DNA from: an uncultured Paraprevotella sp.
GTDB taxonomy: Bacteria; Bacteroidota; Bacteroidia; Bacteroidales; Bacteroidaceae
NCBI GenBank assembly: GCA_944319925.1
Contig: CALUFQ010000010.1
Span: 1-64,000 of the forward strand
Length of the DNA: 64,000 nt
Direction: 5' to 3'
A program made the translations under genes and the position numbers. The notes beneath the pieces were generated by a model. That model saw nothing but the letters and a program-made list of their open reading frames with translations, had not been told where the DNA came from and ran no database searches. Positions 38,844 through 59,855 of this stretch are shown here, piece by piece (positions within the stretch are counted from its first letter, which is position 1; each line of letters starts with the position of its first letter).

Positions 38844-40190
38844 TCACTTGGCATGTGCGCGGTAATACCCCCGGTCTATCTTCCCGTTGTATGTGCGGTG
38901 TATGCGGTCTGTTTCTTCGTATGCGGCCGGGACTTTGTATGTCTCCAGCTTTTCATGGAGGAAGCGGGCTATCTTTTTCTTGTCGAACACACTTCCTGCA
39001 GTCGTCACGACAAGGAGCTTGGGCACTTGTCCGGCGACGGGGTGGTACAGGGGGATGCAGACGCAGTCTTCTATGTCCGGCATGGACATGGCGGCGTCTT
39101 CCACCTCTGAGGGCGCCACTTTGAACCCGCCTACGTTGATGACGTCGTCCGCTCTCCCGCCGAGGCGCAGCATGCCTTCTTCATCGATAGCTCCGTTGTC
39201 GCGGGTGAAAAGGATGCCGTCGCGGAGCACGGCGGCGGTCAGCTCTGGGTCGCCCACGTACCCGCTCATCAGCGTTTTCCCCCGGCAGGCCACGGTGCCC
39301 TCTTCGGTGATGAATATCTCGGAATGTTTCATCGGCTTTCCGAGGCATCCCGCCACGCATTTCTTCCCGTTGAAGTCGTGGGTGCAGATGATGCCCGTTT
39401 CAGTTGAGGCGTACGTGTTGTACAGGCGTGTCTTGGGGAGCAGGCGGCACAGTCTTTCCATATCGGACTGGCCCAGGGGGGCGGCTCCGGTTTCGATGAA
39501 GTCAATCGCGTCCGCGCATGCTTCCAGTTTTCCTCCGCCGAGAGTCATGAGCATGCGCAGGCCGGCGGGGACGAGGAATGTGGCGAACTTGCCGCTTCCT
39601 CCCGGGCGGTCGAATGCGGCGAAGAAGGCGGAAAGGTCTTTCATGCCGCTAGTGATATGCAGTGTGGACCCGCACATGAGGGTCGGATAGACTTTGGAAA
39701 GGCTTCCGATGTGGTTCAGCGGCCCGCAGATGATGAAGGTCAGACCGGGGGAGAAACCTTGGGCGTCCATGAGGTTCTCCGCGTTGGCCACGATGGCTTC
39801 GTGGCTTATCATCACTCCTTTGCTTTTTCCTGTCGTGCCGGTGGTGAAGAGGATGTCCGCCGTGCCATCGGGAATGTCGGCCCGGGCGGCCAAGTCTTCC
39901 CATTCGTGCAGGCGTTCGTCGGGGATGTCGTGTTCCATGGGCATTGCCACGCCTCCGGCCAGGTGGGTAGCGAGATATTCGACGAGGAAGCCCGCCGTCT
40001 GTCCCGCGCGTATGGCCCGAGGCATGCCCGGCCCGAGGCCTTCTGTGCGAAGCTGGTCCGCGCGGGCCTGTATGCATTCCCATAATCGGGCGTATGTCAT
40101 TTCCGCGTCGCCGCACACGATGGCCGTTTTCCCGGGACACCGGTTTGTCGTTTGCCAAAGATAGTCTTCGAATGTGCGCATGTGGCTCAT
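38844..40190 (-). CDS. Acyl/aryl-AMP ligase of the aryl-polyene-like cluster
   Basis: A 448-residue ANL-superfamily adenylating enzyme, shorter than usual. The P-loop TTGTTGKSKG (116-125), YASTETG, and the hinge/C-terminal GGRADDVINVGGFKV and YNGKIDR are intact. By analogy with aryl-polyene clusters it should activate an aryl carboxylate (such as a hydroxybenzoate or cinnamate) and load it on a carrier protein; substrate is inference. It is the last gene of the array, 5 bp after an ACP gene that is its likely partner. Start may be 40190 or 40181. Confidence 0.9.
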   Translation of the reverse strand: MSHMRTFEDYLWQTTNRCPGKTAIVCGDAEMTYARLWECIQARADQLRTEGLGPGMPRAIRAGQTAGFLVEYLATHLAGGVAMPMEHDIPDERLHEWEDLAARADIPDGTADILFTTGTTGKSKGVMISHEAIVANAENLMDAQGFSPGLTFIICGPLNHIGSLSKVYPTLMCGSTLHITSGMKDLSAFFAAFDRPGGSGKFATFLVPAGLRMLMTLGGGKLEACADAIDFIETGAAPLGQSDMERLCRLLPKTRLYNTYASTETGIICTHDFNGKKCVAGCLGKPMKHSEIFITEEGTVACRGKTLMSGYVGDPELTAAVLRDGILFTRDNGAIDEEGMLRLGGRADDVINVGGFKVAPSEVEDAAMSMPDIEDCVCIPLYHPVAGQVPKLLVVTTAGSVFDKKKIARFLHEKLETYKVPAAYEETDRIHRTYNGKIDRGYYRAHAK

Positions 40191-40195
40191 GTGTG

Positions 40196-40423
40196 CTATG
40201 GTTGTTCCTTTAGTTTGCTTTTTACCAGGGCTGCGATGCTGTCCAGGTTTTTCAGGTTCTTGGGCGTGGCGTCGCGGTGGTCGAGCCGGATGTCGTAATG
40301 TTCGGCCAGCAGCATTAGGATGGTCGTGACACCGAGTGAGTCCAATTCGGCAAAGAGGAAGTCCGAGTCGAAGTCAACCAACGGAAGTGCTTCTTCGAGC
40401 ATGGATCTGATTTCATTTTTCAT
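40196..40423 (-). CDS. Acyl carrier protein, starter-loading type
   Basis: A 75-residue carrier protein. The phosphopantetheine serine is Ser29 in ELDSLGV. The helices around it are divergent from housekeeping AcpP. Its place directly before the AMP-ligase suggests it receives the activated aryl starter (inference). One of three carrier proteins in the array. Confidence 0.85.
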   Translation of the reverse strand: MKNEIRSMLEEALPLVDFDSDFLFAELDSLGVTTILMLLAEHYDIRLDHRDATPKNLKNLDSIAALVKSKLKEQP

Positions 40424-40483
40424 ACGGATGTGGCTTTTTAAGATGAATTGTCATGTTTGTGATATAGTCTGTCCGGAGGCGTT

Positions 40484-41632
40484 TCATCCTTGTGCTTGGT
40501 CAACGGGGTTTGCGTATATCCCCGTCAAGATGTCGGACAGGATGGCCGTGTCGCAGTTTTCCCCATATTGTTCCAATGTCTTCAGTCTGTTTTCGAACGC
40601 GGCTTCTTGCACCCGGGTGTACAGGCCGGCAAACTCCCGTTTCCCGGAACGCATGTCGTGGGCGATGTAATTGTTTGGGAAAAGGCGGTATGCCTTGCAG
40701 ATGCGCCGGTCTATCAGGTTGGCCACGGCGCGGTTGAAGCCGCCGGGCGCGGACGGGTCGATTGCCGCCAGTTCGTCTTCCTTCAAAGGTTCGCAGAACT
40801 CCATGTGTACGCGTCCTTTGGCTTGGGCGAATCCCGTGAGGATGCTGTTCACGTCTTCGCCGGGTTTCTTGACATAGCATCCCGCCTTTTGTTTTTCGTA
40901 TAGTTCCAGTGTTTTCAGTATGTCGCACGGCTCCCATTCGTAGCTGATGGCCACGGGGGCGATGCGGAGTCGGGCTATCGCGTCGGCCTTGTTCCGGCCT
41001 CCGCTCATTCCCAGCATTTTGATGATACCCTGGTCTGTGGAGTCTTTTCCGTCCTTGGTGCGCCCGTTGCGTTGCGCGATCCATACCGAGCGGTGTTTGT
41101 GGCAGATGGTATGGCGGATGTATTCGCTCAGGCGGAGCGAGGATTGGTAGAACTGCCTCATGTCGGTGCCGGGGCGTTCCACTTTGAACATCTTGTTGGC
41201 TTTTCCGATGTCAATGATGAGTTGGTTTTGCATCAGGTTTGCGCCGAACGTGATTTCGCTTGTTTCGTGCCCGTTTTGGAACAACACATATTGCATGAGG
41301 CTTGAGTCAAGCACGATGTCGCGGTGGTTGCCGATGAACAAGTATCTTTCCGAGGGCGAAAGGTGTCCAATCCCCCCATAGGTAAATTCGGTCATGGTGC
41401 GCCGTATGACCTGGGCGTTCACGTGGTACATGACCTGTGCCTGGAACTGGTCTGTCGTGCGGATGGCTTTTACGGCCTCCTTCACTGTGGCCAGGTCGGA
41501 TTCCGGGAACACGTAAGACGCCAGCAGGGGGAAAAACGTGCTGTCCGCGATGCGTTGCATGGCTGCGGGGATTTCTTCGTCGCGATAGGGGCGCATGCTT
41601 TCAAATTTGCTTTCGTCTGTCATATTCTTCAT
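40484..41632 (-). CDS. 1-acyl-glycerol-3-phosphate acyltransferase-like protein
   Basis: A 382-residue acyltransferase with the catalytic block IGNHRDIVLDSS (100-111) and a WIAQRNGRTKDG segment. No membrane helix is obvious. It probably transfers an acyl or polyenoyl group to a glycerol-phosphate-like or sugar acceptor (inference). It overlaps the 3' end of the preceding FAD oxidoreductase by about 30 bp. Start at 41632 or 41623. Confidence 0.85.
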   Translation of the reverse strand: MKNMTDESKFESMRPYRDEEIPAAMQRIADSTFFPLLASYVFPESDLATVKEAVKAIRTTDQFQAQVMYHVNAQVIRRTMTEFTYGGIGHLSPSERYLFIGNHRDIVLDSSLMQYVLFQNGHETSEITFGANLMQNQLIIDIGKANKMFKVERPGTDMRQFYQSSLRLSEYIRHTICHKHRSVWIAQRNGRTKDGKDSTDQGIIKMLGMSGGRNKADAIARLRIAPVAISYEWEPCDILKTLELYEKQKAGCYVKKPGEDVNSILTGFAQAKGRVHMEFCEPLKEDELAAIDPSAPGGFNRAVANLIDRRICKAYRLFPNNYIAHDMRSGKREFAGLYTRVQEAAFENRLKTLEQYGENCDTAILSDILTGIYANPVDQAQG

Positions 41633-43145
41633 TGATTTTTTTTACGATGTTGCCATTTCCCACGATGCATTCCGCAGTCTCTATCGCCGTGAGCGGGACT
41701 CCGCAGATGCCGTGCAGGTTGATGTTTTGCCCCGTCAGGAGCAGGTTGCGCACTTTGGTCGCGATGGGCAGTTGGGACAATGCCATGTTCTTGCAGTCGC
41801 GGTTGTACCCATACAAGGCACCTTCTTTCGTGCCGTAGAAATCGCGTATGGTCAGCGGGGAGGACGCGAGGCAGAACTCCATGTCGGCGCGGATATGCGG
41901 GCGCACGGTTTCAAGCTTGTCCAGGATGTGTTGCAGGCATCGCTCTTTCCATGCCTCGTAAGCCGGCGGGCGGTGTCCTGTCCGGCTGCCGGCCCACTGT
42001 GCCACCGCGCTGAACGGCATCGGGCAGTTGACGGTCATGCGCTCCGCCCACGGGCCTTGTTTCCGGGCGGGAGGGGTGAGATACATGAATCCCGAGGGGA
42101 AAGTCTCTTCGTCGTATTCGCAGAGTTTCCATATGCGCCCGTGTGCCGACTGGTAATAGCATGGGTGGTTGACAAAAGGCTGGTGCGCCTCTTTTTTAAA
42201 CTTGATGTACACCGAGAAGGAGGAATACGAGTTGGGGATTTCCTGCAGGCGGTCGCGGTAAGATTTCGGGAAGGCTTTTTCCGGCAGCAAGGCCAGCAAC
42301 GCACAGGGGTGGATGGCGGAAACATACAGGTCGCCTTTGTAGGTCTTCCCGCTCCGGGTCGTGACCTGCCCGATGAGACGTTCGGGCTGGTCTATGGATA
42401 TGCCGGCCGCGGGGTCACCTGCGTGTATGGCCCCACCCGCCGAGGTGATGATGCCGGCCAAGGCTTCGGCCATTTGCTGGCTTCCGCCGGCAAACATGCT
42501 TGAGCCGTTGATGTACAGCACGTTGATTAGCGCATGCACGTAGGCGGGAGTATGTCCGGCCACGCCTCCGTACATCGGGTTCATATAGGCCAGCAGTTCG
42601 GCCAGGCGCGGGTCGGTGATGTATTTGGCGATGAACTCGTCTGCGGGCATGAGGAAATCTTCCGAGTGCGCCCGGAGTATGTCTTGCCTAGTGGTGCGCA
42701 GGTGGAAAAGGTCCACTTCCTCGCTAAGTGACCAGACTGCGTCCATGTAGCGGCGGAGGTTTTCCGCCTGGCGGGGGAAGCGGCCGGCGAGGTAATGCCC
42801 GAAGGCTTCTTTCCCCCGGGGCAGGAGATAGGTCGCGCCGTCGGCTCCGCCGAATGTCACGGAGTCGATGCATCCGGCATCCGTGTGGCGGATTTCCAGC
42901 TGGTCAATGATGCCCAGGTAGGCGCAGATTTTGTGGAGGGTGCCGCCTGGCATGAATCCTCCCAGGATGTGCATGCCTGTCTCGAAAATGCTTCCGTGCC
43001 TGTGGAAGCATTGCAGGCCTCCCCCGATGATGTGGTTTTTCTCCAGCACGGTTACCCTGAATCCTTCCTTGGCAAGGAGGGCACCCGTCATAAGCCCGCC
43101 CAGGCCTCCGCCTATTACGACGATGTCTTTTCCTGTGTTGTTCAT
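41601..43145 (-). CDS. Phytoene-desaturase-like FAD oxidoreductase 2
   Basis: A 514-residue NAD(P)/FAD-dependent oxidoreductase. The dinucleotide motif GGGLGGL (12-18) is followed by GGGLQCFHRHGSIFETGMH and a C-terminal LTGQNINLHG typical of the carotene-isomerase/phytoene-desaturase group. No carotenoid synthesis genes accompany it, so a role in polyene oxidation, reduction or isomerisation is more likely. Its ATG overlaps the stop of the paralogous gene by 4 bp. The two are clearly related but divergent in sequence. Confidence 0.9.
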   Translation of the reverse strand: MNNTGKDIVVIGGGLGGLMTGALLAKEGFRVTVLEKNHIIGGGLQCFHRHGSIFETGMHILGGFMPGGTLHKICAYLGIIDQLEIRHTDAGCIDSVTFGGADGATYLLPRGKEAFGHYLAGRFPRQAENLRRYMDAVWSLSEEVDLFHLRTTRQDILRAHSEDFLMPADEFIAKYITDPRLAELLAYMNPMYGGVAGHTPAYVHALINVLYINGSSMFAGGSQQMAEALAGIITSAGGAIHAGDPAAGISIDQPERLIGQVTTRSGKTYKGDLYVSAIHPCALLALLPEKAFPKSYRDRLQEIPNSYSSFSVYIKFKKEAHQPFVNHPCYYQSAHGRIWKLCEYDEETFPSGFMYLTPPARKQGPWAERMTVNCPMPFSAVAQWAGSRTGHRPPAYEAWKERCLQHILDKLETVRPHIRADMEFCLASSPLTIRDFYGTKEGALYGYNRDCKNMALSQLPIATKVRNLLLTGQNINLHGICGVPLTAIETAECIVGNGNIVKKINEEYDRRKQI

Positions 43146-44638
43146 TTGCCTGCCTCCAATATGTGTCTGTATAAAAAACCGGATGTCAGAAACTCGCTGC
43201 AAACCACGATGGAGCCCACGATAGTGCCCAGCATGCCGTGGGAATTGATGTTTTGCCCGGCCATGAAGACGTTCGGGATGCGGGTCTTGTGCGGGACTCT
43301 CCCGGCGCTGCCGAGCGCCACGTCTTTTGCCACGCCGTAAATGGCACCGTTTTCCGTGCCCGTGTAGTCGCGGTAAGTCAGTGGTGAGGAAACGTGGAAA
43401 CCGGCGATGTTGTCCCTGATGCCGGGGAACTGCTTGGCGAGCGAGGCAATCAGGCCTCTGGCGCGCCTGTCTATGAAATCTTCATAATCTTTTCCCCTGT
43501 GCCCGACGGTTGTGTGCTTCCATGCCTCAAGCTCTTCTGCCCGCATATATGAGATGATGGTGCCGGCCTTGGCGAACTGTTGGTTGGGAGTGTCGCAAGT
43601 GTGCATGTACAGGTAGCCTTTTGGCCATGTGGCCTCATCGTATTGCTCGCATCCCCATGGCGTGCCGGCATTGTAGTTGAAGAAATTATAGTTCATGTAC
43701 GGCACGGCGTTTTCCTTGAAACGCAGGTAAACGGAAAAACCGCCTGTCGTTTGCGGGATATGGTTGATACGGTGTCTGAACGCGGGGCGGATGAGGTTTG
43801 TGCCAGCCAGCAGTTCCATGGTGCGCATGGGGTGGATGGCGGCTATCACGTAGTCGGCGGGCAGCAGTTCCCCGCCATTAGTTTCCACTCCTGTGGCGCG
43901 GGTGCTGTCGCAGACGATGCGCGTGGCCTTGCTTCTGGTCCGGACATTTCCTCCATGTTTGGCAATGACCCGGGAGAGGGCACCGGCCACGATGTCGCTT
44001 CCGCCGATGATTCGGAACGAGCTTTGGTTGTAGAAATCCATGATGAAAGCATGGACGGAGAAAGGGGTCTTGCCGCGCTCGGCCGCATACAGCGGTAGGT
44101 CTCCCGCCAATACTTTTTGCAACAACGGGTCTGTGAACAGCTCTTCGAGCACCTTGTCCATGGGGCGTAGCTGGTATTCGGTGCCTGCGGCGTTGAGGGG
44201 CGTCTCGTCTTTCAGCGTGTGCAGTGCCGAGGCGGAAGCGATGCTGTCAATGACACGGCAATATTTCGCCAGGTTGTCTGTTTGTGAAGGGAAATAGGAG
44301 GCCATCTTTTCGATGAACGCGTCTTTCCCGTTGGCGTATTCGAATTGCTGCCCTTCGAGCGATATGACGTTGTACCTGTCCGTGTCCAGCCGCGAGAGCG
44401 GGAGCTGGTCTTCGATTTCAAGGTAGCGCAGCATTTTGTTCAAGATTTGTCCCTCGTCCGCGCTGCCGATGAAATGCATCCCCGTTTCGAATTTGGTTTT
44501 CTGGCGGTAGAAGCATTGCAGGCATCCGCCGATTTGGGCGTTTTGCTCAAGAACGGTCACGTTGTAGCCGTTTTTTGCGAGGATGACGCCTGTGGACAGC
44601 CCGCCTAACCCGCCGCCTATGATAATGACTTTCTTCAT
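43142..44638 (-). CDS. Phytoene-desaturase-like FAD oxidoreductase 1
   Basis: A 498-residue FAD enzyme of the same group: GGGLGGL (8-14), IGGCLQCFYRQKTKFETGMH, and C-terminal MAGQNINSHGMLG. It overlaps the MMPL-acyltransferase gene by 4 bp upstream and its paralogue by 4 bp downstream, so the three are translationally coupled. The substrate may be the aryl-polyene chain, which is inference. Confidence 0.9.
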   Translation of the reverse strand: MKKVIIIGGGLGGLSTGVILAKNGYNVTVLEQNAQIGGCLQCFYRQKTKFETGMHFIGSADEGQILNKMLRYLEIEDQLPLSRLDTDRYNVISLEGQQFEYANGKDAFIEKMASYFPSQTDNLAKYCRVIDSIASASALHTLKDETPLNAAGTEYQLRPMDKVLEELFTDPLLQKVLAGDLPLYAAERGKTPFSVHAFIMDFYNQSSFRIIGGSDIVAGALSRVIAKHGGNVRTRSKATRIVCDSTRATGVETNGGELLPADYVIAAIHPMRTMELLAGTNLIRPAFRHRINHIPQTTGGFSVYLRFKENAVPYMNYNFFNYNAGTPWGCEQYDEATWPKGYLYMHTCDTPNQQFAKAGTIISYMRAEELEAWKHTTVGHRGKDYEDFIDRRARGLIASLAKQFPGIRDNIAGFHVSSPLTYRDYTGTENGAIYGVAKDVALGSAGRVPHKTRIPNVFMAGQNINSHGMLGTIVGSIVVCSEFLTSGFLYRHILEAGK

Positions 44639-47600
44639 GACAAGCTTACTTTGTATTTGTTCTTATATGCCGTATATGGGGCTATGTAGGCCGGGGTTTC
44701 CAGTTCTTCCCTCAACTTCCGGTATTCCTTTACGTACCATTTGTGCATCTGGCTGGTCAGTTCCCGGTCTGTGGCATCCTTTATGGCACCGGCCGTGAGT
44801 CTTTCGAATATTTCCAATGTCACTTGTCCCCGCCTGAGCATGAAGTCATGTTTGGGGAGTACGTCGTACAAGCCGTGGATACATACGGGCAAGATGTCTA
44901 TGCCCAGTGCTTTGGCCAAAGTGAACGCTCCTTTGTGGAATCTTCCGATTTCCCCGTCGGGTGTCCGTGTGCCTTCGGGGAACACGACGATGCTGTATCC
45001 TCTTTCTACCAAGTCTTGCAAGTAGGGGAAGTTGCGGTCGTATCCGTTGGACACGGGGCGGAACTCGGCTGTGTGTATGACGGCCCCATAGTAGGGATTG
45101 TTCCAGACCCAGTCGTTGGTCAGCACGATGATTTTTGGAGACAGTTGCATGAGGCACATCAAGTCCAGGTGTGATTGGTGGTTGCATACGATGACGGCAG
45201 GGCGGGCAAATTGTTCCCCGGTCCTGTTTCTCATCTGGAACCTGACTCCGGGCACGTGGCGGATGACGAAATGGGAAATCCGTTGCAGCAACCGGTGGTA
45301 GGAGTTTTCGCCATTCCAAAATCTTTGCAACGGGCGGTATATAAATAAGGTATAGGGAATCAGCAGGGCGAACATGCCGAAGAGGAAAAAGCTGATGGAA
45401 AAGAGAGATGAGGCCAGGCGGGACAACGTGACAGGGTATTCCCTCCGCTCGCCGTTCTTTTCCGTCAGCCAGCGGAATATGGCCGGCGGGATGCTGTATG
45501 CCATGAACACGACGGTTGCCATGCCGATGATGGCGACTTCCGCAAGCGACCGCATGGCCGGGTGCTTGCTGAAAATCAGGGTGCCGATGCCGATGAACAT
45601 GATGATGGCGGAAAGCCCGACGCTGTTTTTATATTGTTCCAGGCGGCGTTTCCCCGTGGTGTATTCGTACATCAAGCCTTCTGTGATGAAAATCGTGTAA
45701 TCGTCACCTTGCCCGAAGATAAACGTGGCGAGGATGATGTTCACGATGTTGAACTGCATGCCCGACAGTTGCATGATGCCCAGGATCCATGTCCAGCTGA
45801 CGGCTAGCGGGAGGAAGGCCATGATGCTTAGTTCGATGCTGCCGAAAGAAAGCCAAAGGAAAACGAACACGACGAGGCCGCAGACGATGCCGAGATAGTC
45901 GAACGAGTCGGAAAGCGTTTCGGCAAGATGGTTGCTGACATCCGATTGGGAAAAGACGAAACAGCCTTGCGGGGCAAGGAGGGCTATTTGCCTTTTGACC
46001 GATTCGGCTTGGTGTTTGTCCGTTTGCACGAAGTTCACCACCTTGTATCCGCTCTCGTCCTGCATGATGAACCTGTGTCCGGCGAATCTGCGGAACAAGT
46101 CCTGGAAAGCGGAGTCGGCTTCGTGGAAAGAGCCATGGCGCATCATTTCCTCGAAGGGCGAGAATGCTTCCGGGGAGAAGCCGGCGGCGGCCGCCGCCGT
46201 TTCGAGCGATGTGGCAACATGCGCGTGGTTTCTCCAGAAAGCGTTCCAACGGTCGGTGCGCTTGTTCCTGAGGCTGTCGGAAAGCATTATTCCTGCAATT
46301 CCGACCGTGTTGCACACTCCGTCCAGTCCTGTGATGCGCCCTGCCATGTGTTCATTGCGTCTTAACGCTTCGTCCAGTGTCTTTCCTTCTGCCACGGCAT
46401 ATAACAAGGCTGTGCTGTCGTCCCGGCCTTGCATGCTTGAAGACAGGAAATCCAGGTCTTCGCGTTGTTGCGGGAGCATGTAATTGATGTGCCGCATGTC
46501 TGAATCGAAAGAGGTGTCCCGGCTGAAATACCCGAAAATGGCGGTCAGTCCGGCTATGGTCCACAGGAGGGCACGTCTCCCGCGTTTGTTTTGTGGCAGG
46601 GCCAAACGCCCCAAGGGAATGGTTCTTTCGTGCGCTTTCCCGTTTTTATGCGGGCGCATGAGGACAGGCAGGCAGACGAGTACGAACAAGATTGTGCCGG
46701 CCAAGACCAGCGAACCGAATAATCCGAGGTCGCGCATGGCCTGCGCGTCGAGCAAGACAAGGCACAGGAAGGCACTGATCGTGGTGATGTTGCCCACGAG
46801 CAGCGGCGGCACCATTTCCTTGAGGACTTCCCGCATGTCGGCCTCATGTTTGAGATGCTCGATGAAGTGCAGCGGGTAGTTGACAGCGATGCCGATGATG
46901 ACGGAACCAATCCCTATGACAATCAGGGACATGCCGTCGCGTATCAAAGAGATGGTGCCCAAGGCGAAAAGCCATCCGGCACACACGGACAGGCCAATCC
47001 AAAGAATATCGCGCGCCCGGCGGAACGAATAGAGGAGAATCGACAAGATGAGCACGACCGACAGGGACACGGCAAGCAGGCTGTCTTGCTTGATTTGTGT
47101 GGCATTGGTCACTGCTATGAGAGGGGCACCGACGGCAGACAGGCTTAATGAAGGGTAATCTGCCTGCACATCCTGCATGCACGAATCCAGCAGTTGTTTC
47201 AATCGTTCGTTGTCGCGCGACTCGCTGATGCCGAATGGCGACTCTAACAGCACGATGCCGGTGCTGTCTTTGAAGAGATGCCCGTCGATGGTTTTGTATG
47301 CACCGTCCATGCCGAGCTTGCGCAGCCGGCCGATGGCATCGGTGCTTAGGTTGAGAGGGTCGTATGGCAGGCTTTGGGCCATGAAGTTTCCCATCGGGAA
47401 CATGAGCATTTGTTTGTTGCGCTCCATTTGTGTGGGCAGGAAGTCTTCCCGGGCCAGCAAGGATTCGGCGTGGCGGTAGTCCTCGTCCGAAAAAAGGAGA
47501 GGGTAAACTTGCCGGACGCATTGCAGCAAGTCCATCATCGCCGTTTCGTCAATCCTCACTTGGAGGTTCCGTGCCAGCCGCCCCGTGTCTCTCCGGGCGA

Positions 47601-50003: not shown

Positions 50004-50024
50004 ACCGTTTTCTGTTTAATGTTT

Positions 50025-50381
50025 TCATTTAAGTATCAACATGCATCCGCAGACAATCAGTGCGCAGCCCATCCACCGGTGCGCGGGAACCGTTTCATGG
50101 AAAAACAGGATGGCCGAAAACATGGCGATGACGTAGCTGAGGCTGATCATGGGATAAGCCATGCTGAATGGGAAATTTTTGAGGATGTACATCCACAATA
50201 GCGAGGCTGCGGCATAACAGAGGCCGCAGGCGGCGAATTGCCAATTGGCAAACAATGGCAGCCAAAACTCCCTGTTCCAGCCAAAAGGCGGCATTTTCAG
50301 CAAGGCGAACTTCAGCAGCACCTGCCCTGAAGAGAGCAGGGTGCATTGAATCAATGAATATATGAAAAGCTTCCACGTCAT
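50025..50381 (-). CDS. Small EamA/SMR-like membrane protein
   Basis: A 118-residue protein with four predicted membrane helices (IYSLIQCTLLSSGQVLLKFALL, FAACGLCYAAASLLWMYIL, AYPMISLSYVIAMFSAILFF, GCALIVCGCMLIL). The shape matches half-size EamA/DMT transporters such as ArnE/ArnF, which flip lipid-linked sugars. A flippase role for the glycosylated lipid is plausible. 4 bp after the ketosynthase stop. Confidence 0.8.
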   Translation of the reverse strand: MTWKLFIYSLIQCTLLSSGQVLLKFALLKMPPFGWNREFWLPLFANWQFAACGLCYAAASLLWMYILKNFPFSMAYPMISLSYVIAMFSAILFFHETVPAHRWMGCALIVCGCMLILK

Positions 50382-50385
50382 GGTG

Positions 50386-52167: not shown

Positions 52168-52188
52168 CAGGTGCGTCTCTGTATGGGG

Positions 52189-52446
52189 TTATTTTGTGCG
52201 ATGGGCGGCGACGTAGCCGGCCATCGTGTGTATGGATTTGAAAATGGCTTTTCCTTCCGAAGGGTCGGACAGCTTGATGCCGTAATGTTTCTCGAGGAGC
52301 ACAATCAGTTCAAGCGCGTCAATGGAGTCGAGTCCGAGCCCGTCGCCGAAAAGCGGCGCGTCGCCCTCGATGTCTTCCGGGCTCATGTCTTCAAGGTTCA
52401 GGACCTCGATTATCTGTTGTTTCAGTTGTTTTTCCAGTTCTTCCAT
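52189..52446 (-). CDS. Acyl carrier protein, extension type
   Basis: An 85-residue carrier protein with GLGLDSIDALEL; the phosphopantetheine site is Ser41. It lies between the two fused ketosynthase genes, which suggests it carries the growing polyene. Confidence 0.92.
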   Translation of the reverse strand: MEELEKQLKQQIIEVLNLEDMSPEDIEGDAPLFGDGLGLDSIDALELIVLLEKHYGIKLSDPSEGKAIFKSIHTMAGYVAAHRTK

Positions 52447-52462
52447 GTTCTTGTATGTTTAA

Positions 52463-54211
52463 TCAAATATTGTGTTCCTTGTTTATGATATATAGTTCCG
52501 CTTCGAAGCATTCCGGGGATTGGGCTTCGATCCAGCCTCCAATGACGCTTTCCGTCCCGGGGGCAGAAAGTGCCTGCCGCACCAGCCCGGCGGTTTGTGC
52601 CGGCGTGTCTTGCAACAAATACGATGTCTCGCCATGGTAATGGTTGCGGATGGCCACTTCGCCCGCCACGATGTTGGGCAATGTGTAGATGAAAGCCGAA
52701 GGGCTCGGGTAATAGTCTTCCGGGCACTGGATGGTCTGTTGGTAAGACTTGTCTGCACAAAGCGACCCGCTCCGCCCCACAAATATTACGGCGCGGTCTT
52801 CGCGCGCGACGAAGCGCCTGCTTTCCCCCGCTTTTGCCTCGGCTTCCAGCAACAGTTCCGATGCGATGAAGCCCAATTTGCACAATAAATCCATTTTGTG
52901 GAATTTCGGGTAGTCTTTGACGTATGTGTGGTAGAGGGTTTTCAGCATGGCTGCACCGCTGCAGTTTGCCGTCGGAAGGACTTTCCCGTCGAGGGAGACG
53001 TCCCGGCTTGTCATGCGCACGGTATGGGCGACATGGGCGTATGCGGTTTGCCGGCGGGTGTTTGTCCCGGGGCGGGGGACACCTTTCCTGAACAACACAC
53101 AAGCATTGCATCCGCCGAATCCCGACATCATTTTCAGGAAACTGTTTCCGGTGGCCGTACGGTGTTGTCCGGACAGGTTGGCCGGGTGGCTGACACCGGC
53201 ATGTTCGAAGCCTTTTGTGGCCAATATCGTCCGGTCTTCCACTGCGGCCATGGAAATCAATGTTTCCAAAACGCCGGACGCGCCTAACGTGTGGCCGAAA
53301 TAGCCTTTCAGCCCATTGGCCGGGATGTTGTCCAATCCCATCCGGTGGATGGCCGTGGCCTCCATTTCGTCGTTGAAGAGTGTCGCCGTGCCATGCACGT
53401 TGATGAAGGCGAGGTCTGATGTGTCTTGCTCCTCAAGCGTTTCTTTGAGTGCGCGGTATGCCCCTTCCGCAGTTTTGGACGGTCCCGAGGTGTGGAATGC
53501 GTCGTTGCGGATACTCCCGCAGGCAATGTGCCAGGCTTCCGTTTCCTGTCCGTCCGCGCGGCGGGTGTAAATGACACATGCCGCGGCCTCTCCCAAGTTC
53601 AGCCCGGCCCGGTCTTCGTCGAAAGGCCTGCAGGCGTTTTCCGACATGGCTTTCAGGGACTGGAAGCCGCTGACGATGAAAGGCGAGAGGACATCGGCCC
53701 CGATGACGACGGCATGGTCGTATGGTCCTGTTTTCAAAATGCGGAAAGCTTGCAACTGGGCATCCAGACCTGAAATGCAGGCATTGCACACCACAAGCGG
53801 TTCGTTTGGGTTGCGAAACCATCCGGCGATGCGTTTGGCCGTTTCCGGCAGCAGCAGGCGGTCGGAAGCGGTGCTGTCGTTGCCCAACAGTTCCACGTTG
53901 CCTTTTGTCGTGGCGATGACGAAGAGCACATGCGGGCTTTGGGGGTTGATGGAGGTTTCTTGCATGGCACGGGCGGCTGCAAGGATGGCGATACGTTCGA
54001 AACGTGTATGGCCGGATATGGATATGCCTGTTTCGGCGCATGCTTGGTCAATCATCCCGTCGTCAAGCATGGAAGCCACGAAAGGTTCTGGCATGTCCCA
54101 TATTCCCGTATGCCTGCGGAGCATGGACGCGCCAGCCTTGACACGTTCATAATTGACGTGTGTGCCCATCCCGAGCGGTGAAACGATATAGTCTGATACT
54201 TTGGTGATCAT
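52463..54211 (-). CDS. Ketosynthase with C-terminal ketosynthase-like domain (b)
   Basis: About 582 residues in the same layout as the gene at 50386-52167. The N-terminal ketosynthase has Cys145 (CNACISGLDAQ), His271 (NVHGTAT) and His305 (GYFGHTLGAS). The final 170 residues hold a ketosynthase-like segment (FVGRSGSLCAD, SAFIYTLPNIVAGEVAIRN) without an active-site Cys. The ATG at 54211 overlaps the thioesterase stop as ATGA; starts at 54223 and 54235 are also in frame. The active-site Cys sits in an unusual NACISG rather than TACSSG context, which may mark starter-unit or hydroxylated-chain specificity (inference). Confidence 0.88.
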   Translation of the reverse strand: MITKVSDYIVSPLGMGTHVNYERVKAGASMLRRHTGIWDMPEPFVASMLDDGMIDQACAETGISISGHTRFERIAILAAARAMQETSINPQSPHVLFVIATTKGNVELLGNDSTASDRLLLPETAKRIAGWFRNPNEPLVVCNACISGLDAQLQAFRILKTGPYDHAVVIGADVLSPFIVSGFQSLKAMSENACRPFDEDRAGLNLGEAAACVIYTRRADGQETEAWHIACGSIRNDAFHTSGPSKTAEGAYRALKETLEEQDTSDLAFINVHGTATLFNDEMEATAIHRMGLDNIPANGLKGYFGHTLGASGVLETLISMAAVEDRTILATKGFEHAGVSHPANLSGQHRTATGNSFLKMMSGFGGCNACVLFRKGVPRPGTNTRRQTAYAHVAHTVRMTSRDVSLDGKVLPTANCSGAAMLKTLYHTYVKDYPKFHKMDLLCKLGFIASELLLEAEAKAGESRRFVAREDRAVIFVGRSGSLCADKSYQQTIQCPEDYYPSPSAFIYTLPNIVAGEVAIRNHYHGETSYLLQDTPAQTAGLVRQALSAPGTESVIGGWIEAQSPECFEAELYIINKEHNI

Positions 54212-54627
54212 TCCGTCAGCCATTGTTTTTTCCATTCTTCATAGAATGGCGGGGTGAACCAGATTAATTGGTAGTGGTTGTCGGTGAACACTTGTGTCGA
54301 ACGCCCCGTTGCGACGAGGCTGCCGTCTTCCGTGTCGCGTATCTCATAGTCGAAAACTATTTTTGCGGCCTCTGTCGGAAGGTATTTGACGGTTATGCTC
54401 GGGTGCATGCCATAGACCAATGGCTTTTTATATTGGATGTTCAATTCCACAATCGGGGCGAAATAGCCGTTTCGGAAGATTTTCATATATCCTAAATCAT
54501 ATTTCTTTCCGAAAGCTTCGCGCGCATCTTCAAAATATAACGGATAAGAGCCATGCCACACCACGTTCATGGAGTCCACTTCGCTGAAGCGGATGTCGAA
54601 GGCGAGGGTTTCTGTCAGTTCTTTCAT
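54208..54627 (-). CDS. YbgC/4HBT-like thioesterase
   Basis: A 139-residue hot-dog thioesterase. RFSEVDSMNVVWHGSYPLYFEDAREAF in the first third matches the 4-hydroxybenzoyl-CoA thioesterase group (Asp then His in the active loop); only short parts are quoted here as key residues. It may release or edit acyl-ACP chains. Coupled by 4-bp overlaps to genes on both sides. Confidence 0.87.
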   Translation of the reverse strand: MKELTETLAFDIRFSEVDSMNVVWHGSYPLYFEDAREAFGKKYDLGYMKIFRNGYFAPIVELNIQYKKPLVYGMHPSITVKYLPTEAAKIVFDYEIRDTEDGSLVATGRSTQVFTDNHYQLIWFTPPFYEEWKKQWLTE

Positions 54628-55055
54628 TGTCGGATGGCTATTTTTATGTTTGCTGTCACAATGGTTTCATCGCAAGCGCGTATTTCGGCATTCGCCAGTG
54701 TCATGCCGAACACCTCTTCCTTGACCCAAATGGTCGTGTTGAGGGTCTCGCCTGTTTGGGGTGTGCGGGATACGTGCAGGTCGCTGACAGCCCCGATAAA
54801 GCCGATTTTTACGGGCTGCCCGCTAATCAGGTTGAAATACCCTAGCCGTGCGGCACAAGTCTGGGCGATGTTTTCTATCAAGCCGGAAGCCAGCATCATC
54901 CCCCCTGAAACAAAAATGTTGTCGTGCCGGATGGTGAGCCGGGTGCTTGTCTTTGTTTCATCGCAATGCGTCAGCCTGTCAATCAGGATGAACGGAGGGC
55001 GTTGCGGCAGGATGTCCTCGGGGTTTATGTCCAGAAGTCGTAAAAGTTGAACCAT
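54624..55055 (-). CDS. ApeP-like 3-hydroxyacyl-ACP dehydratase
   Basis: A 143-residue hot-dog protein. The N-terminal LPQRPPFILIDRL is the hallmark of the dehydratases found in aryl-polyene clusters, and MLASGLIENIAQTCAARLGY gives the central helix. The first in-frame ATG (55109) lies deep in the upstream gene; MVQLLRLLDIN at 55055 fits the family start and leaves a 31-bp overlap. Confidence 0.87.
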   Translation of the reverse strand: MVQLLRLLDINPEDILPQRPPFILIDRLTHCDETKTSTRLTIRHDNIFVSGGMMLASGLIENIAQTCAARLGYFNLISGQPVKIGFIGAVSDLHVSRTPQTGETLNTTIWVKEEVFGMTLANAEIRACDETIVTANIKIAIRQ

Positions 55056-55891
55056 TGTGTCGGGTATAGTTTGATGATGTGTTCTAATTCCGTGGCAAAG
55101 CATTGGCATAATGCTTCCTTGTCCTTTCCTTGCAGCTTGCGCACATATATTTTATAGCGTTTCATCCCCGTTTTCATGACAAAGACGGCCAATACAGGCA
55201 GTTCCCGTTGGACGGCCAATGCGAACGGCCCTAGCGGGAACCGGGCTTTGCCTGCCATGAAGTCGCAGGTTATACTGCGCGGCGACCCGAATACGCGGTC
55301 TCCGGGCATGCTGACGATGTTTCCCGTCTGCAACGCCGTGTTGATGGCAAAGATGTGCGACATGTCCGTGCCCACCGGCACCATCTTGACACCGTGTGTG
55401 GAGAACAGCCGTGAGCGTGAAGCCATCACGGTTTCCGTTTCGCCGGCGAACACCAACGAATAGAACGTTTTGTGGGCCGGTTTCAGCGAATAGCCCGCCA
55501 ATTCATAATTACCCACGTGCGAGCTGAGCTGCAGGAACCCGTCTTTCCCTCTTTCCAGTTCGTCGAACAGTTCCTGGCCTTCCACTTCGAACCGGAACTG
55601 ATGTCCGGCATAGGCCGCGAAACGGTCCACGATGATTTGCCCGAACCGGAAATGGTTAAGGCAGGCATGCCAAAAGGCTTTTGCCCGGTTCATGCCGAAT
55701 CTCAGGCGGTAGAACTTGTAACTGGCTTGGTAGCCCTTGCGCCGGGTTATCATGTAAAACGGGACCATCCATCCCATGCACCAATAGGGGATGAACAGCG
55801 AAGTGTGGCGAAACCATCGGATGAGTGTCCGTTGCATCCAAGGTGTCCCGTCTGTCGTCCCTTTCCAGTCTTTATGTTCAAGTTCCGCCAT
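55025..55891 (-). CDS. LpxL/HtrB-like acyltransferase
   Basis: A 288-residue lysophospholipid-acyltransferase-family protein with the HX4E motif LSSHVGNYE (His125, Glu130) and a hydrophobic N-terminal anchor (SLFIPYWCMGWMVPFYMI). Relatives acylate lipid A; in aryl-polyene/flexirubin clusters such enzymes are thought to esterify the polyene to a lipid. ATG at 55891 preferred to the GTG at 55900. Confidence 0.9.
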   Translation of the reverse strand: MAELEHKDWKGTTDGTPWMQRTLIRWFRHTSLFIPYWCMGWMVPFYMITRRKGYQASYKFYRLRFGMNRAKAFWHACLNHFRFGQIIVDRFAAYAGHQFRFEVEGQELFDELERGKDGFLQLSSHVGNYELAGYSLKPAHKTFYSLVFAGETETVMASRSRLFSTHGVKMVPVGTDMSHIFAINTALQTGNIVSMPGDRVFGSPRSITCDFMAGKARFPLGPFALAVQRELPVLAVFVMKTGMKRYKIYVRKLQGKDKEALCQCFATELEHIIKLYPTQWFNFYDFWT

Positions 55892-55916
55892 TGCTGCCAC
55901 TTGCTGTCACTTGCTG

Positions 55917-56162
55917 TCAACCGTTGAGCTTGCTTTCTATGTAATCGCAGAATTTGCTGAATGTATCGACCCCTTGCATTTCCTCGGGTTTGATTTTGAA
56001 GCCGAAGTTTTTGTCCACAATGACCACGATGTCCACAAAGTCGAGCGAATCAATGCCCATGTCTTCTTTCAACTTTGCGTCCGGGGTGATTTTGTCTTCT
56101 TCGATTTCGAGGTCTTCGATAAGGAAGTTACGTACTTTTTCTTCAATCTCTGTTCTTGTCAT
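55917..56162 (-). CDS. Acyl carrier protein
   Basis: An 81-residue carrier protein with MGIDSLDFVDIV; the attachment site is Ser39. Of the three in the array it is the closest to ordinary ACPs. It lies between the O-methyltransferase and the LpxL-like gene. Confidence 0.93.
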   Translation of the reverse strand: MTRTEIEEKVRNFLIEDLEIEEDKITPDAKLKEDMGIDSLDFVDIVVIVDKNFGFKIKPEEMQGVDTFSKFCDYIESKLNG

Positions 56163-56180
56163 ATCCTTTATAATGGTTTT

Positions 56181-57284
56181 TTATTTGGTTTTGCAAATTA
56201 AAATGCTGTGCCCATGCCCCAAACCGTCATGGATGGCTTCCACTGCCAGCCCGGCCTTCTCGATGCATGCCCGAAGGTCTTCTGTGTTATACATCTTGCT
56301 GTTTCCGTTGGCAATGGCCGTGAAATAGAGCGAGGTCATGGTGAGGGCCAATGCCGCAGGCGCGTATTTTTGCCTGTCCCAAAGGGTTTCCATGATATAC
56401 AGGCGGGAGTTTTCGGCCATGGCTTCACGTGCCCGTTCCAGGATGCTTGTGATTTCGTCCATGCTGAAGCAGTCCAGGAACTGGCTCATCCAAATGGCAT
56501 CGGCTTTCCGCCCTTCGGGGAAATGCTGCCCGGCATCGAGCAGGTTGATTCCGTAGCCGTCGATGCGCGAGGCTTCCGCTTCGTCTCGGATTGCTTCCTT
56601 CATCATGGCTATCTGTTGTGGCAAGTCGAGTATTGTCACCCGCACTTCTTTGTCATGATTCACGCAACGCAACGCCCATCGCCCGGTGTTTCCCCCTACG
56701 TCGAAAAGGGTGCGCGGTTTGTTGGTGCCGAATACGATGGACAAGGCTTCGTCAAATGAATGGTCGCTGTAGAAATGGTCGAATGCGAACCACGAGCGTT
56801 GGACGTGGCGGGGAAGCGAGGAAAGGCCTTCATACACCGTGGGCCATTCGCCGAAATGGCGAAGCCCTTCCGGCTTGCCGTTTTCCAATGACTCTTCCAA
56901 GGAAAACCATCCCTCGTAGTTGACGTCATGGTTGAAGTCTATGTCCACTTGCGTGGCCGGGTCGATGAGCAGGAACCAGCCGGTTTTGGACAGCCTGTAG
57001 CGGTCGGTTGCCGTGTCTGCCAGGATTGTGCCGATGCAGAGGGATGCTTCCAGCAGGCATTTCACTGCGTAGTCGCTCAGTCCGGTCTTTTGGCATATTT
57101 CATCGCGTGTCAGCCCTTTTTCGTGCTCGCGCAGCATGTCCAGGATGCCGCGTTTCAGCATGATGCGCGTGGCTTGGAAAATGGCCGGCCCCCATGCGAT
57201 GAACTGCGCTCGGAGCTGTGCTTCCCGTGCGGAAAGCTTTTCTTGGGTATATGCCTTTTTCAGGGCGGGAGAGAGTTCCATCAT
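56181..57284 (-). CDS. SAM-dependent O-methyltransferase
   Basis: A 367-residue methyltransferase with an N-terminal winged-helix dimerisation domain (GILDMLREHEKGLTRDEICQ) and a class I SAM fold with DVGGNTGRWA (195-204). This architecture is that of small-molecule O-methyltransferases (CalO1/COMT-like). It would methylate a phenolic oxygen on the aryl head group (inference), as in methoxylated aryl polyenes. Overlaps the upstream gene by 4 bp. Confidence 0.9.
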   Translation of the reverse strand: MMELSPALKKAYTQEKLSAREAQLRAQFIAWGPAIFQATRIMLKRGILDMLREHEKGLTRDEICQKTGLSDYAVKCLLEASLCIGTILADTATDRYRLSKTGWFLLIDPATQVDIDFNHDVNYEGWFSLEESLENGKPEGLRHFGEWPTVYEGLSSLPRHVQRSWFAFDHFYSDHSFDEALSIVFGTNKPRTLFDVGGNTGRWALRCVNHDKEVRVTILDLPQQIAMMKEAIRDEAEASRIDGYGINLLDAGQHFPEGRKADAIWMSQFLDCFSMDEITSILERAREAMAENSRLYIMETLWDRQKYAPAALALTMTSLYFTAIANGNSKMYNTEDLRACIEKAGLAVEAIHDGLGHGHSILICKTK

Positions 57285-57850
57285 TTGATTGCGTCAAGAA
57301 GCCCGTCGGCAAGATAGCGGTACACGCTGATGGCACGTGCCTTAAAAACCGGTGCCATCAAACCTTTTACTTTGGCGAATTCGAATTCGCATACGGTTTC
57401 TCCGCTTTGATTGTCCACCAATTGCATCGTCCCGTTGATCAAGGCGCCGCCTGCTTTCCGGCTCATGCCCCATATCATGCCGCCCGCGTTGCCCACGTTC
57501 ATGGACGTGACGTTGACTTTCAACGTGTATTTTGCGGTGTCATTGTCCTGGGTCATGGCCAGCTTTATCTTTTGTCCGCGCTTTTCGTTAAAATATGTGA
57601 TGAAGCTTTCATGACCCCGGTTTACGTCGTCGATGAACTTCTGGTATTCATCTGCGCTTTTTTCGCCATAATAGACATCTGCAGGCTTGTTTTTGCCGTC
57701 AATCATTGTCTTGTGGTCGTCTATCACCACGTTGGCGACGGCTTCTTCTTCAAAGACGGTTTTGTTGCCGCTTGTCATTTTTACCGGGTCGGCCGCATGG
57801 AGCAGGACTGTTCCCAGCAGCAACATGCATGCAAGCACAATTTTTTTCAT
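57281..57850 (-). CDS. Exported protein of unknown function in the cluster
   Basis: A 189-residue protein with a clear signal peptide (MKKIVLACMLLLGTVLLHA). The mature part holds YNEKRGQKIKLAM-like charged strands and NVGNAGGMIWGMSRKAGGALI; no family was recognised. It overlaps the ketosynthase stop and the methyltransferase start by 4 bp each, so it is an integral part of the array. A periplasmic role is likely; nothing more can be said. Confidence 0.8.
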   Translation of the reverse strand: MKKIVLACMLLLGTVLLHAADPVKMTSGNKTVFEEEAVANVVIDDHKTMIDGKNKPADVYYGEKSADEYQKFIDDVNRGHESFITYFNEKRGQKIKLAMTQDNDTAKYTLKVNVTSMNVGNAGGMIWGMSRKAGGALINGTMQLVDNQSGETVCEFEFAKVKGLMAPVFKARAISVYRYLADGLLDAIK

Positions 57851-59106
57851 GATTCCTCTTTTTTTATTGATGATTCGTTTTCTTTTACTGACCGGATAAC
57901 GAGTGCGCTGTTTGTCCCCCCGAATCCGAAGCTGTTGCTCAACACCGTATTCACTTGCGTGTCCACGGCTTTTGTGGGGATGTTCAGTTTTAGGGCACAC
58001 TCGTCCGGGTGTTCCAAGTTGATGTTCGGTGCGACGAAACCGTTTTGCATCATGATAATGGAATAAACGATTTCGCTGGCACCGGCCATCCAGCATTCGT
58101 GCCCGGTCATGGATTTGGTCGAGCTGACGAGTGCATGTTTGCCTTCGAACAGGCGGGTCAGTGCCTTGGCTTCATACATGTCGCCTTGCGGGGTGGAAGT
58201 CGCGTGGGCATTGACATAGTCTATGTCATCGGGGGTCAGCCCGGCATCGTCCAACGCGCGCGACATGGCGATGAAACAGCCCTCCTCGCTCGGTTGGGAG
58301 ATACCTCCGCCATTGCTCGAAAAGCCATATCCGGTCACTTCGCACAAAATGTCTGCCCCCCGCGCTTTGGCATGTTCGTATTCCTCCAGCACAAGGGCGG
58401 CTGCCCCCCCGCTCGGGATCAGCCCGTCACGGTCTCTGTCGAATGGGCGGCTTGCTTTTTCCGGTTCGCCCATGCGCACGGAGAATGCCCGCAGCGCGTC
58501 AAACGATGCCATGGAATAATAGTTGGTTTCCTGTGCGCCTCCGCACAACACCATGTCTTGCAGTCCTTGTTTGATGAGCATGTATCCGATGCCTATCGAG
58601 TGGCTGCCGCTGGCACAGGCGGCACTGATGGTGAAGTTGATTCCGCGTAGGTGGAATATGGTGCAAAGATTCATGTTGACGGTTGAGTTCATTGATTGGA
58701 ACACTAGTCCGTAGCCCAGCATTTCCGAGTCGTGCTTTTCGTCCATGATCCTGGCCGACTCTACGACTGGTTTTGCCGACGAGTCGTTGCCGAAGATGCA
58801 TCCCATTTCGTTCTGCAACAAGTATTCATCATTTATTTTTGCCATGGCCAACGCCTGGCGACTGGCCATGTAGGCATATTCCGCTTCTTCCGACATGCCT
58901 GCGCGGGTGTGCCGGTCAAGGTCTTTCCGCGTGATGACCGGTTTTTCGACCCTTCCGGTCAGTCCGGAGCGGTAGCCATATTGGATGCGTTCCGGGTCCA
59001 GCCCTATTCCCGACTTGCCGTTATAAAGTGCTTCTTTTACGGTTGCTATGTCAGTTCCCAGGCAAGACCAAATGCCCATGCCCGTGATGACCACTCTTCT
59101 TTCCAT
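57847..59106 (-). CDS. FabF-like ketosynthase (single domain)
   Basis: A 419-residue ketosynthase with the complete triad Cys164 (SAACASGSHS), His301 (NAHATSTPQGD) and His336 (KSMTGHE). Unlike the other two, it has no C-terminal extra domain. It is second in the array, after fabG, and may start the chain or make a distinct acyl unit. The ATG at 59106 is 17 bp after the fabG-like stop. Confidence 0.93.
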   Translation of the reverse strand: MERRVVITGMGIWSCLGTDIATVKEALYNGKSGIGLDPERIQYGYRSGLTGRVEKPVITRKDLDRHTRAGMSEEAEYAYMASRQALAMAKINDEYLLQNEMGCIFGNDSSAKPVVESARIMDEKHDSEMLGYGLVFQSMNSTVNMNLCTIFHLRGINFTISAACASGSHSIGIGYMLIKQGLQDMVLCGGAQETNYYSMASFDALRAFSVRMGEPEKASRPFDRDRDGLIPSGGAAALVLEEYEHAKARGADILCEVTGYGFSSNGGGISQPSEEGCFIAMSRALDDAGLTPDDIDYVNAHATSTPQGDMYEAKALTRLFEGKHALVSSTKSMTGHECWMAGASEIVYSIIMMQNGFVAPNINLEHPDECALKLNIPTKAVDTQVNTVLSNSFGFGGTNSALVIRSVKENESSIKKEES

Positions 59107-59123
59107 TGTGTCAGTATATATAA

Positions 59124-59855
59124 TTAAGTGTAAAGCCCCCCGTTGATGGAGATTACTTCGCCCGTGATGTAGCTTGCGGCATCGGATATGAGGAAGCCGG
59201 CCAAAGCCGCGACTTCTTCCGGCTTTCCGAAACGCTGCATGGGGATTAGCTTTTTCAACTCGTCTTGCGGAAGGTTCTTGGTCATGTCGGTTTCTATGAA
59301 TCCGGGTGCGATGGCATTTACGGTCACGCCCCGGGCGGCAGTTTCCTGTGCCAATGCCTTGGTGGCGCCGATGAGTGCGGCTTTGGCCGCGCTGTAGTTG
59401 GTTTGCCCTGGAAGTCCTTTCAGTCCGGACAATGAGGCCATGTTTACGATTCTTCCGCCGTGTTTGCGCATCATCATCTTGGGAAGCAGATGCCGTGTCA
59501 CGTGAAAGAATCCGTCCAAGGTGGTGTTTATCACCCCATGCCAATCTTCTTCGGGCATCATGAACATCAGGTTGTCCTTGCGGATGCCTGCGTTGTTGAC
59601 CAAATAAGCGATGTAGTCGTCGGGGTGGGCATTCTCCCAGCGGTTGAGTGCCGTTTCCACGGCTTCTTTCGAACTTACGTCAAACTGCATTAATTCGGCC
59701 GTGGCATTTTCCGCTTCCACAAGCCGCTTCACTTCTTGGGCTGCTTCAGCGTTGTTTTGGTAATTAATAAGCACAGGAATTCCCATTTGGGCGAGTTTCA
59801 GGCAAATGGCTCTGCCCAATCCGCGCGATCCTCCAGTTACGAGTGCATATTTCAT
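59124..59855 (-). CDS. FabG-like 3-ketoacyl-ACP reductase
   Basis: A 243-residue short-chain dehydrogenase with TGGSRGLGRA (NADPH loop), NNAG, and the Ser / Tyr-x3-Lys set in MASLSG and NYSAAKAAL. First gene of the array. It would reduce the 3-keto group in each polyene extension cycle. MKYALVTGG at 59855 is the family start; the upstream open frame lies across the promoter region. Confidence 0.95.
   Translation of the reverse strand: MKYALVTGGSRGLGRAICLKLAQMGIPVLINYQNNAEAAQEVKRLVEAENATAELMQFDVSSKEAVETALNRWENAHPDDYIAYLVNNAGIRKDNLMFMMPEEDWHGVINTTLDGFFHVTRHLLPKMMMRKHGGRIVNMASLSGLKGLPGQTNYSAAKAALIGATKALAQETAARGVTVNAIAPGFIETDMTKNLPQDELKKLIPMQRFGKPEEVAALAGFLISDAASYITGEVISINGGLYT

Follow-up and report, generated by a model that had tools for sequence, protein, structure and literature searches.

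Genetic organization and family assignment of the cluster

The DNA stretch analysed here, called the window, comprises nucleotides 1 to 64,000 of contig CALUFQ010000010.1 from an uncultured Paraprevotella sp. (GenBank assembly GCA_944319925.1) and includes, between nucleotides 38844 and 59855, a cluster of 22 open reading frames (ORFs) related to the gene clusters for flexirubins and other aryl polyenes. All 22 ORFs are located on the minus strand, are uninterrupted, and are spaced -85 to +60 bases apart (coordinates as used here, with the start codons of several ORFs reassigned); given these short or negative spacers the array is consistent with a single transcription unit. The ketosynthase (KS) Cys and acyl carrier protein (ACP) Ser sites are present. 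Protein families were assigned by Pfam and NCBIfam profile searches, and three window proteins, FlxB, FlxJ, and LolA2, exceeded the NCBIfam flexirubin equivalog cut-offs. The ORF map, the Pfam and NCBIfam assignments, and these three equivalogs bear out an earlier sequence-only reading of this DNA, which had described a 22-gene array with the aryl-polyene/flexirubin toolkit. Judged from its genes, the locus is a real and intact flexirubin-type (flx) aryl-polyene cluster.

The flexirubin cluster of Chitinophaga pinensis, flxA to flxY (PMC3992019), shares with the window the FlxB, FlxJ, and LolA2 equivalogs, a core of KS, dehydratase, and thioesterase genes, a glycosyltransferase, an acyltransferase, and an exporter. 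In contrast, the window includes no FlxA tyrosine ammonia-lyase (TAL), no FlxY ligase, and no DarB, and has instead a different ligase and a carrier protein, ACP3. As FlxA, FlxY, and DarB were not found, the locus falls outside a strict definition of a flexirubin cluster. The aryl-polyene clusters APE-Ec and APE-Xd (PMC8253772) resemble the window in having an AMP-forming ligase, ACPs, a type II core, an RND/MMPL transporter with LolA/LolB-like proteins, and a methyltransferase; they differ from it in that three window proteins match flexirubin models and that UbiC, the source of 4-hydroxybenzoate, is absent from the window's genome. A Bacteroides xylanisolvens cluster has also been likened to that of C. 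pinensis (PMC12940132).

Absence of known starter enzymes from the genome

The genome that includes the window (3.11 Mb in 105 contigs, 99.4% complete) had no match to the ammonia-lyase family of histidine ammonia-lyase (HAL) and TAL (PF00221) and none to the FlxA model NF053541. The chorismate lyases UbiC (PF04345) and Rv2949c-like (PF01947) each had no match in any of the 30 genomes searched, this one included, while as positive controls PF04345 matched in E. coli and PF01947 in three other genomes. The sequence-only reading had seen no aryl-forming enzyme in the array and had proposed a genome search for HAL/TAL or UbiC; the lack that it described thus extends to the whole genome, with zero matches for each. 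The 4-coumarate:CoA ligase FlxY gave no NF053551 match at E ≤ 1e-100 in the genome, and a tblastn search of the window found no remnants of TAL (best E 1.2), FlxY (0.26), or an esterase present in related clusters (0.52). The missing DarB, also reported from the sequence, was confirmed: the genome's sole match to PF08541, the C-terminal domain of β-ketoacyl-ACP synthase III, is FabH (409 bits, NF006829), whose gene has a neighbour that by eye resembles GTPase Era. DarB should have shown in this genome, since PF08541 matches the DarB of the class-level relative G547 (hmmscan, 49.6 bits). The putative DarA of G547 had no Pfam or NCBIfam match.

FlxY and the window ligase alternate across the family

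FlxJ, FlxY, the window ligase, and PF00221 were each searched for in a single sample of 299 genomes, all at least 85% complete and from the same family as the window. FlxJ was found in 57 of them and FlxY (E ≤ 1e-100) in 36, every one of which also has FlxJ. The ligase (E ≤ 1e-60) was found in 23, including 21 that carry FlxJ, at 45-100% identity, and G128, which has a ligase 48% identical and no FlxJ. The remaining row, G216, was dropped as a distant paralogue (36% identical over a part, far from the cluster of a FlxY-bearing genome), so that FlxJ is present in 21 of 22 ligase-bearing genomes. With this row dropped, the 57 FlxJ-bearing genomes consist of 36 with FlxY and 21 with the ligase; none has both and none has neither. 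ACP3 follows the same division, as it was found in 21/21 ligase-type genomes and in 0/21 of those FlxY-type genomes (of the 36) that were read beyond FlxJ; among the latter, the loci of G077, G110, and G132 have few other cluster genes or none at all and tell little about ACP3. FlxY and the ligase are therefore mutually exclusive alternatives, and ACP3 is the constant partner of the ligase. The sequence-only reading overlooked this distinctive feature, the loss of FlxY and its exclusive alternation with a ligase-ACP pair; its description of the product as a possible new variant is a fair one.

A quick FlxJ tree of the 57 genomes, which has four long end branches and 17 of 54 inner branches unsupported, required four changes of ligase type, three of them forced by supported branches, compared to a mean of 17.4 when the types were shuffled; TAL together with FlxY required seven changes. 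Since ligase-type and FlxY-type clusters interleave by FlxJ, the ligase has been exchanged more than once. The FlxY-type clusters without TAL in G022, G159, and G054 have a gene order near-identical to that of the window from FlxB to the flavin adenine dinucleotide (FAD) enzyme genes, and differ from it in that FlxY precedes the acyltransferase gene AT3 and an esterase gene is present, whereas in the window ACP3 and the ligase follow AT3. The ligase-type clusters of G018, G060, G253, and G318 are like the window in having a ligase (51-58% identical) with ACP3 adjacent and no TAL, and unlike it in having a BD-FAE-type esterase; G018, G060, and G318 also differ by a GT2-containing protein of ~500 amino acids and a separate MMPL gene. 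No description of the ligase exchange was found in the literature, within a search of titles and abstract openings that left subscription journals mostly outside. The starter variant is common and, as far as searched, undescribed.

The ligase and its adjacent carrier protein

The window ligase belongs to a branch of the ANL family different from that of FlxY, as its C-terminal domain is PF13193 and that of the PaaK-like FlxY is PF14535 (the G022 FlxY scores 699 bits with NF053551). Residues H160, E264, and K437 are invariant in 16 sequences, and the window ligase retains the TTGTTG loop and the C-terminal lysine. Position 161 is Ile in 13 of 20 sequences and Leu in the other 7, while the aligned gramicidin synthetase domains have Asp, which in those domains binds the amino acid substrate; the Ile or Leu therefore speaks against an amino acid substrate. 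The AlphaFold model (mean predicted local distance difference test score, pLDDT, 88.7) has as nearest solved structures MenE, MatB, 4-coumarate:CoA ligase (4CL), feruloyl-CoA synthetase, and 4-chlorobenzoate ligase, at 20-24% identity, and the predicted fold is compatible with, although not diagnostic of, an aryl acid substrate.

ACP3 is directly upstream of the ligase, at gaps of no more than ~140 bases, in 21/21 cases and in G290, and its LDSL site was found in 21 of 22 ligase-bearing genomes (G066 being the one without a pattern match). ApeH adenylates 4-hydroxybenzoate and then loads it on an ACP without a CoA ester (PMC8253772). Because an ACP adjoins the ligase here, this precedent suggests that the ligase may likewise load an aromatic acid directly onto ACP3. 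In G318 (L142), a single ORF joins ACP3 in frame to the MMPL exporter, through either a real fusion or an assembly error.

Distribution of the tyrosine ammonia-lyase

A FlxA-like TAL, detected with PF00221, was found in 19 of 36 FlxY-type and 0 of 21 ligase-type genomes. The lack of TAL that had seemed peculiar from the sequence is therefore common, as TAL is absent from 38 of the 57 FlxJ-bearing genomes. Among the 19 FlxA-like lyases, 17 are within ~5 kb of FlxJ and those of G020 and G275 are on other contigs. Full-length FlxA-like matches scored 497-554 bits with PF00221 and a HutH-like group scored 596-654 bits; the FlxA identity was confirmed by model for G020 and, beyond the 299 genomes, G025 only. 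A second, partial lyase match of G293 (517 bits, on another contig) was left unclassified, and the ligase-type genomes G178 and G186 carry a HutH-like lyase. A raw Fisher test of TAL against ligase type, which ignores kinship, gave p 1.9e-5, and kinship may explain the contrast between the ligase types. In G275 (C133:3307-4723) the FlxA-like lyase is in two pieces with an in-frame stop and FlxY is retained, possibly a case of TAL loss in progress.

Gene content and surroundings

The genes of the cluster are listed in Table 1. KS2 and KS3 are ~590 amino acids each and correspond to two genes apiece in G020. AT3 had no match in a profile search against the sequences of solved structures; its model (mean pLDDT 79, with three stretches below 50) had GPAT1 8e4y as best Foldseek hit (E 2.8e-7), followed by PlsC. 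A PADLOC search with the LolB2-like protein found no family.

Table 1. Genes of the flexirubin-type cluster in the window
Gene product	Coordinates	Strand	Evidence and remarks
FlxB-type short-chain dehydrogenase/reductase (SDR) ketoreductase, 243 aa	59124..59855	-	NF053542, 397 bits (cut-off 340)
KS1, ketosynthase (FabF/FabB-like)	57847..59106	-	Pfam KS N and C domains; Cys, NAH, and GH motifs
Small protein without family	57281..57850	-	Signal-peptide-like N-terminus (by eye); no Pfam or NCBIfam match; L023 and L024 have homologues at the corresponding position
FlxJ-family methyltransferase	56181..57284	-	NF053543, 578 bits (cut-off 560)
ACP1	55917..56162	-	PF00550; DSL site
LpxL-like acyltransferase	55025..55900	-	PF03279; alternative ATG start at 55891
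DH1, putative dehydratase	54624..55055	-	Position and relatives only; no Pfam or NCBIfam match at E ≤ 1e-10
4HBT-fold thioesterase	54208..54627	-	PF13279
KS2, ketosynthase with C-terminal extension	52463..54235	-	Pfam; extension is a separate gene in G020
ACP2	52189..52446	-	PF00550; DSI site
KS3, ketosynthase fused to a second KS-like domain (chain-length factor, CLF-like)	50386..52167	-	PF00109, PF02801, PF13723 at 433-570; split in G020 and G022
EamA/SMR-like small membrane protein	50025..50381	-	PF00892
LolA2, flexirubin transport	49374..50003	-	NF053544, 219 bits (cut-off 125)
LolB2-like protein	48932..49396	-	Weak: NF053540, 21 bits (cut-off 60)
DH2, FabA/ApeI-like dehydratase	48559..48945	-	PF07977; weak PF22818 (ApeI-like)
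GT2 glycosyltransferase	47859..48587	-	PF00535
MMPL exporter fused to PlsC-type acyltransferase	44635..47877	-	PF03176, PF01553; similar long proteins in G020 and G022
FAD1, CrtD/CrtISO-like flavoenzyme	43142..44638	-	PF01593; TIGR02733, 110 bits (below cut-off 550)
FAD2, CrtD/CrtISO-like flavoenzyme	41601..43145	-	PF01593; TIGR02733, 110 bits (below cut-off 550)
AT3, glycerol-3-phosphate acyltransferase (GPAT)-like, 382 aa	40484..41632	-	No Pfam match; predicted structure and Foldseek
ACP3, carrier protein	40196..40423	-	PF00550, 24.4 bits (cut-off 20.8); LDSLG site; ligase neighbour in 22/22 ligase-bearing genomes
ANL-family acyl/aryl-acid ligase, in place of FlxY	38844..40190	-	PF00501, PF13193; AlphaFold pLDDT 88.7

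A terminator scan beyond the ligase gene found one site, on the other strand, with 1.1 expected. An MFS transporter gene (37603-38826) is convergent with the ligase gene and, from its position, could encode an importer. The G+C content of the cluster is 55.1%, compared to 52.6-53.0%, and FlxJ was found in 0 of 17 other genomes of the same genus that were searched; gain of the cluster by transfer is possible on these two grounds.

Three features that the sequence-only reading had considered unusual turned out to be shared or already classified, and were rejected as novelties. The first was the pair of FAD enzymes. FAD1- or FAD2-like genes score across all three cluster types, in 10/11 TAL plus FlxY, 7/10 FlxY-only, and 13/21 ligase-type genomes read beyond FlxJ, counts affected by cross-matching between the two queries and by partial loci. 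A single FAD gene was seen in eight TAL plus FlxY clusters, the presence of two is characteristic of clusters of the window's type (e.g., G169, G018, G020, G022), and a FAD1 homologue 34% identical is found in G547 with FlxA-like, FlxY-like, and DarB genes. The second, an O-methyltransferase said to have its own domain set, is FlxJ by NF053543, and the third, the exporter-acyltransferase fusion, recurs as MMPL-acyltransferase proteins of 1202 amino acids in G020 and 1160 in G022.

A scan of GTDB species genomes returned at least 572 stretches encoding a FlxJ relative at E ≤ 1e-3. The best 80, to which the following counts refer, came from Prevotella, Bacteroides, Parabacteroides, and other Bacteroidota, many from rumen or gut, with two labelled 'uncultured bacterium'. 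TAL was present in the stretch covered at 15 of these loci; among the 44 with FlxB and at least 2 kb upstream, 13 had TAL and 31 had none. The ligase was in view in L034 and L053, neither with TAL in the stretch covered. The nearest loci, L023 and L024 (FlxJ 75% identical), have the same order as the window through MMPL and no TAL within ~7.4 kb upstream of FlxB; their stretches end before the ligase end.

Other variations were observed among the relatives. A BD-FAE-type esterase (PF20434; G022 type, L019:13505-14416) with an N-terminus that appears signal-like by eye has a homologue in 17/21 ligase-type genomes in the stretches read, is absent from the window, and might release plant phenolic acids. 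A pair of genes for proteins of ~430 and ~120 amino acids, the larger of which resembles by eye a B12-binding radical SAM protein, is inserted in the clusters of G216 (L138), G253 (L152), and G318 (L142) and was not seen in the window. In G110 (L145) and G077 (L157) FlxJ is apart from other cluster genes and FlxY is on another contig, so that the pathway appears dispersed. The ligase-type genomes G066, G160, G227, G248, G262, and G274 (genus code g27) have no FAD1/FAD2, thioesterase, or FlxB-like score, some of these loci being partial.

Proposed initiation of the polyene and alternative explanations

In C. pinensis, 4-coumarate is formed from tyrosine by the deaminating enzyme FlxA and is then converted to the CoA ester by FlxY (PMC3992019). 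We consider it probable, at roughly 0.6, that in the window's cluster this initiation by TAL and a CoA ligase was exchanged for a ligase-ACP pair whose substrate is an aromatic acid, either scavenged or supplied by an unrecognised route. We infer the following order of steps. The ANL ligase would adenylate the aromatic acid and load it directly onto the adjacent ACP3; the core (KS1-3, FlxB, the dehydratases, and ACP1/2) would extend this starter with malonyl units to a polyene; FlxJ would methylate the ring; the thioesterase would release the polyene; and the acyltransferases, GT2, LolA2/LolB2, and MMPL would link it to a lipid and carry it to the outer membrane. The probable source of the aromatic acid would be gut or rumen contents, or else a pathway with no recognisable TAL or known chorismate lyase. 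The sequence-only reading had left the starter as imported, made elsewhere, or not aromatic; the first two options are retained here, and the third appears less likely, as an aromatic head group is favoured by the persistence of FlxJ, read as a ring methyltransferase, in nearly all ligase-bearing genomes.

Several observations weigh against this exchange. The TAL contrast rests on three independent pairs on the tree and is not significant, and since 17 FlxY-type genomes likewise lack TAL, its loss does not require a change of ligase. The nearest folds of the ligase also include malonate and o-succinylbenzoate ligases and nonribosomal peptide synthetase domains (19-24% identity), and the G178 ligase has an identity of 44-45% and is encoded on a separate contig. 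The frequent location of the ligase after MMPL in relatives, like the in-frame ACP3-MMPL of G318, would be equally in keeping with a function in attachment or export. Moreover, the pair follows AT3 in the window, and FlxY precedes AT3 in FlxY-type relatives.

The strongest competing explanation, which we regard as unlikely, is that the ligase and ACP3 still activate 4-coumarate, TAL having been lost owing to an abundance of plant 4-coumarate in gut and rumen, and that the cluster makes a flexirubin-type aryl polyene of the ordinary kind. The 17 FlxY-type genomes that lack TAL yet keep a 4-coumarate ligase fit this explanation, as do the presence of 4CL and feruloyl-CoA synthetase among the nearest solved ligases and the esterase of most ligase-type genomes; the esterase is, however, absent from the window, and why FlxY never persists beside the new ligase is left unexplained. 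In addition, the ligases have Ala (19 of 20) and an invariant Lys (20 of 20) at two positions where 4CL has Gly and Ser, respectively.

Another explanation is that the ligase and ACP3 act at a late stage, where they would activate either a fatty acid or the completed polyene so that it can be attached or exported, with the starter provided by an unrecognised enzyme encoded elsewhere in the genome. The location of the pair after MMPL in several relatives, the G318 ORF, and the fact that the pair does not occupy the exact position of FlxY speak for it, but the two ligase types share a distal location in the operon, beyond the FAD genes, and in C. pinensis the pathway begins with FlxY (PMC3992019), with which the ligase alternates exclusively; we regard a late role as improbable. 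A cluster in decay, or one whose polyene is non-aromatic, is the least credible explanation, as the 22 ORFs are uninterrupted, the KS and ACP sites are present, and FlxJ is conserved, in spite of the patchy occurrence of FlxJ in the genus and the ligase-type loci of another genus, some partial, without scoring FAD, FlxB, or thioesterase genes.

Returning to the exchange of initiation, a broader and more tentative proposal, which we find rather doubtful as a whole, is that gut Bacteroidales have repeatedly swapped TAL and CoA ligase for a ligase-ACP pair, with which the polyene would start from another aromatic acid scavenged from the host diet, resulting in diet-dependent outer-membrane aryl polyenes without dialkylresorcinol. 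If initiation is a swappable cassette, the ligase type may predict the head group, and gut strains lacking TAL may need dietary phenolic acids for an outer-membrane lipid.

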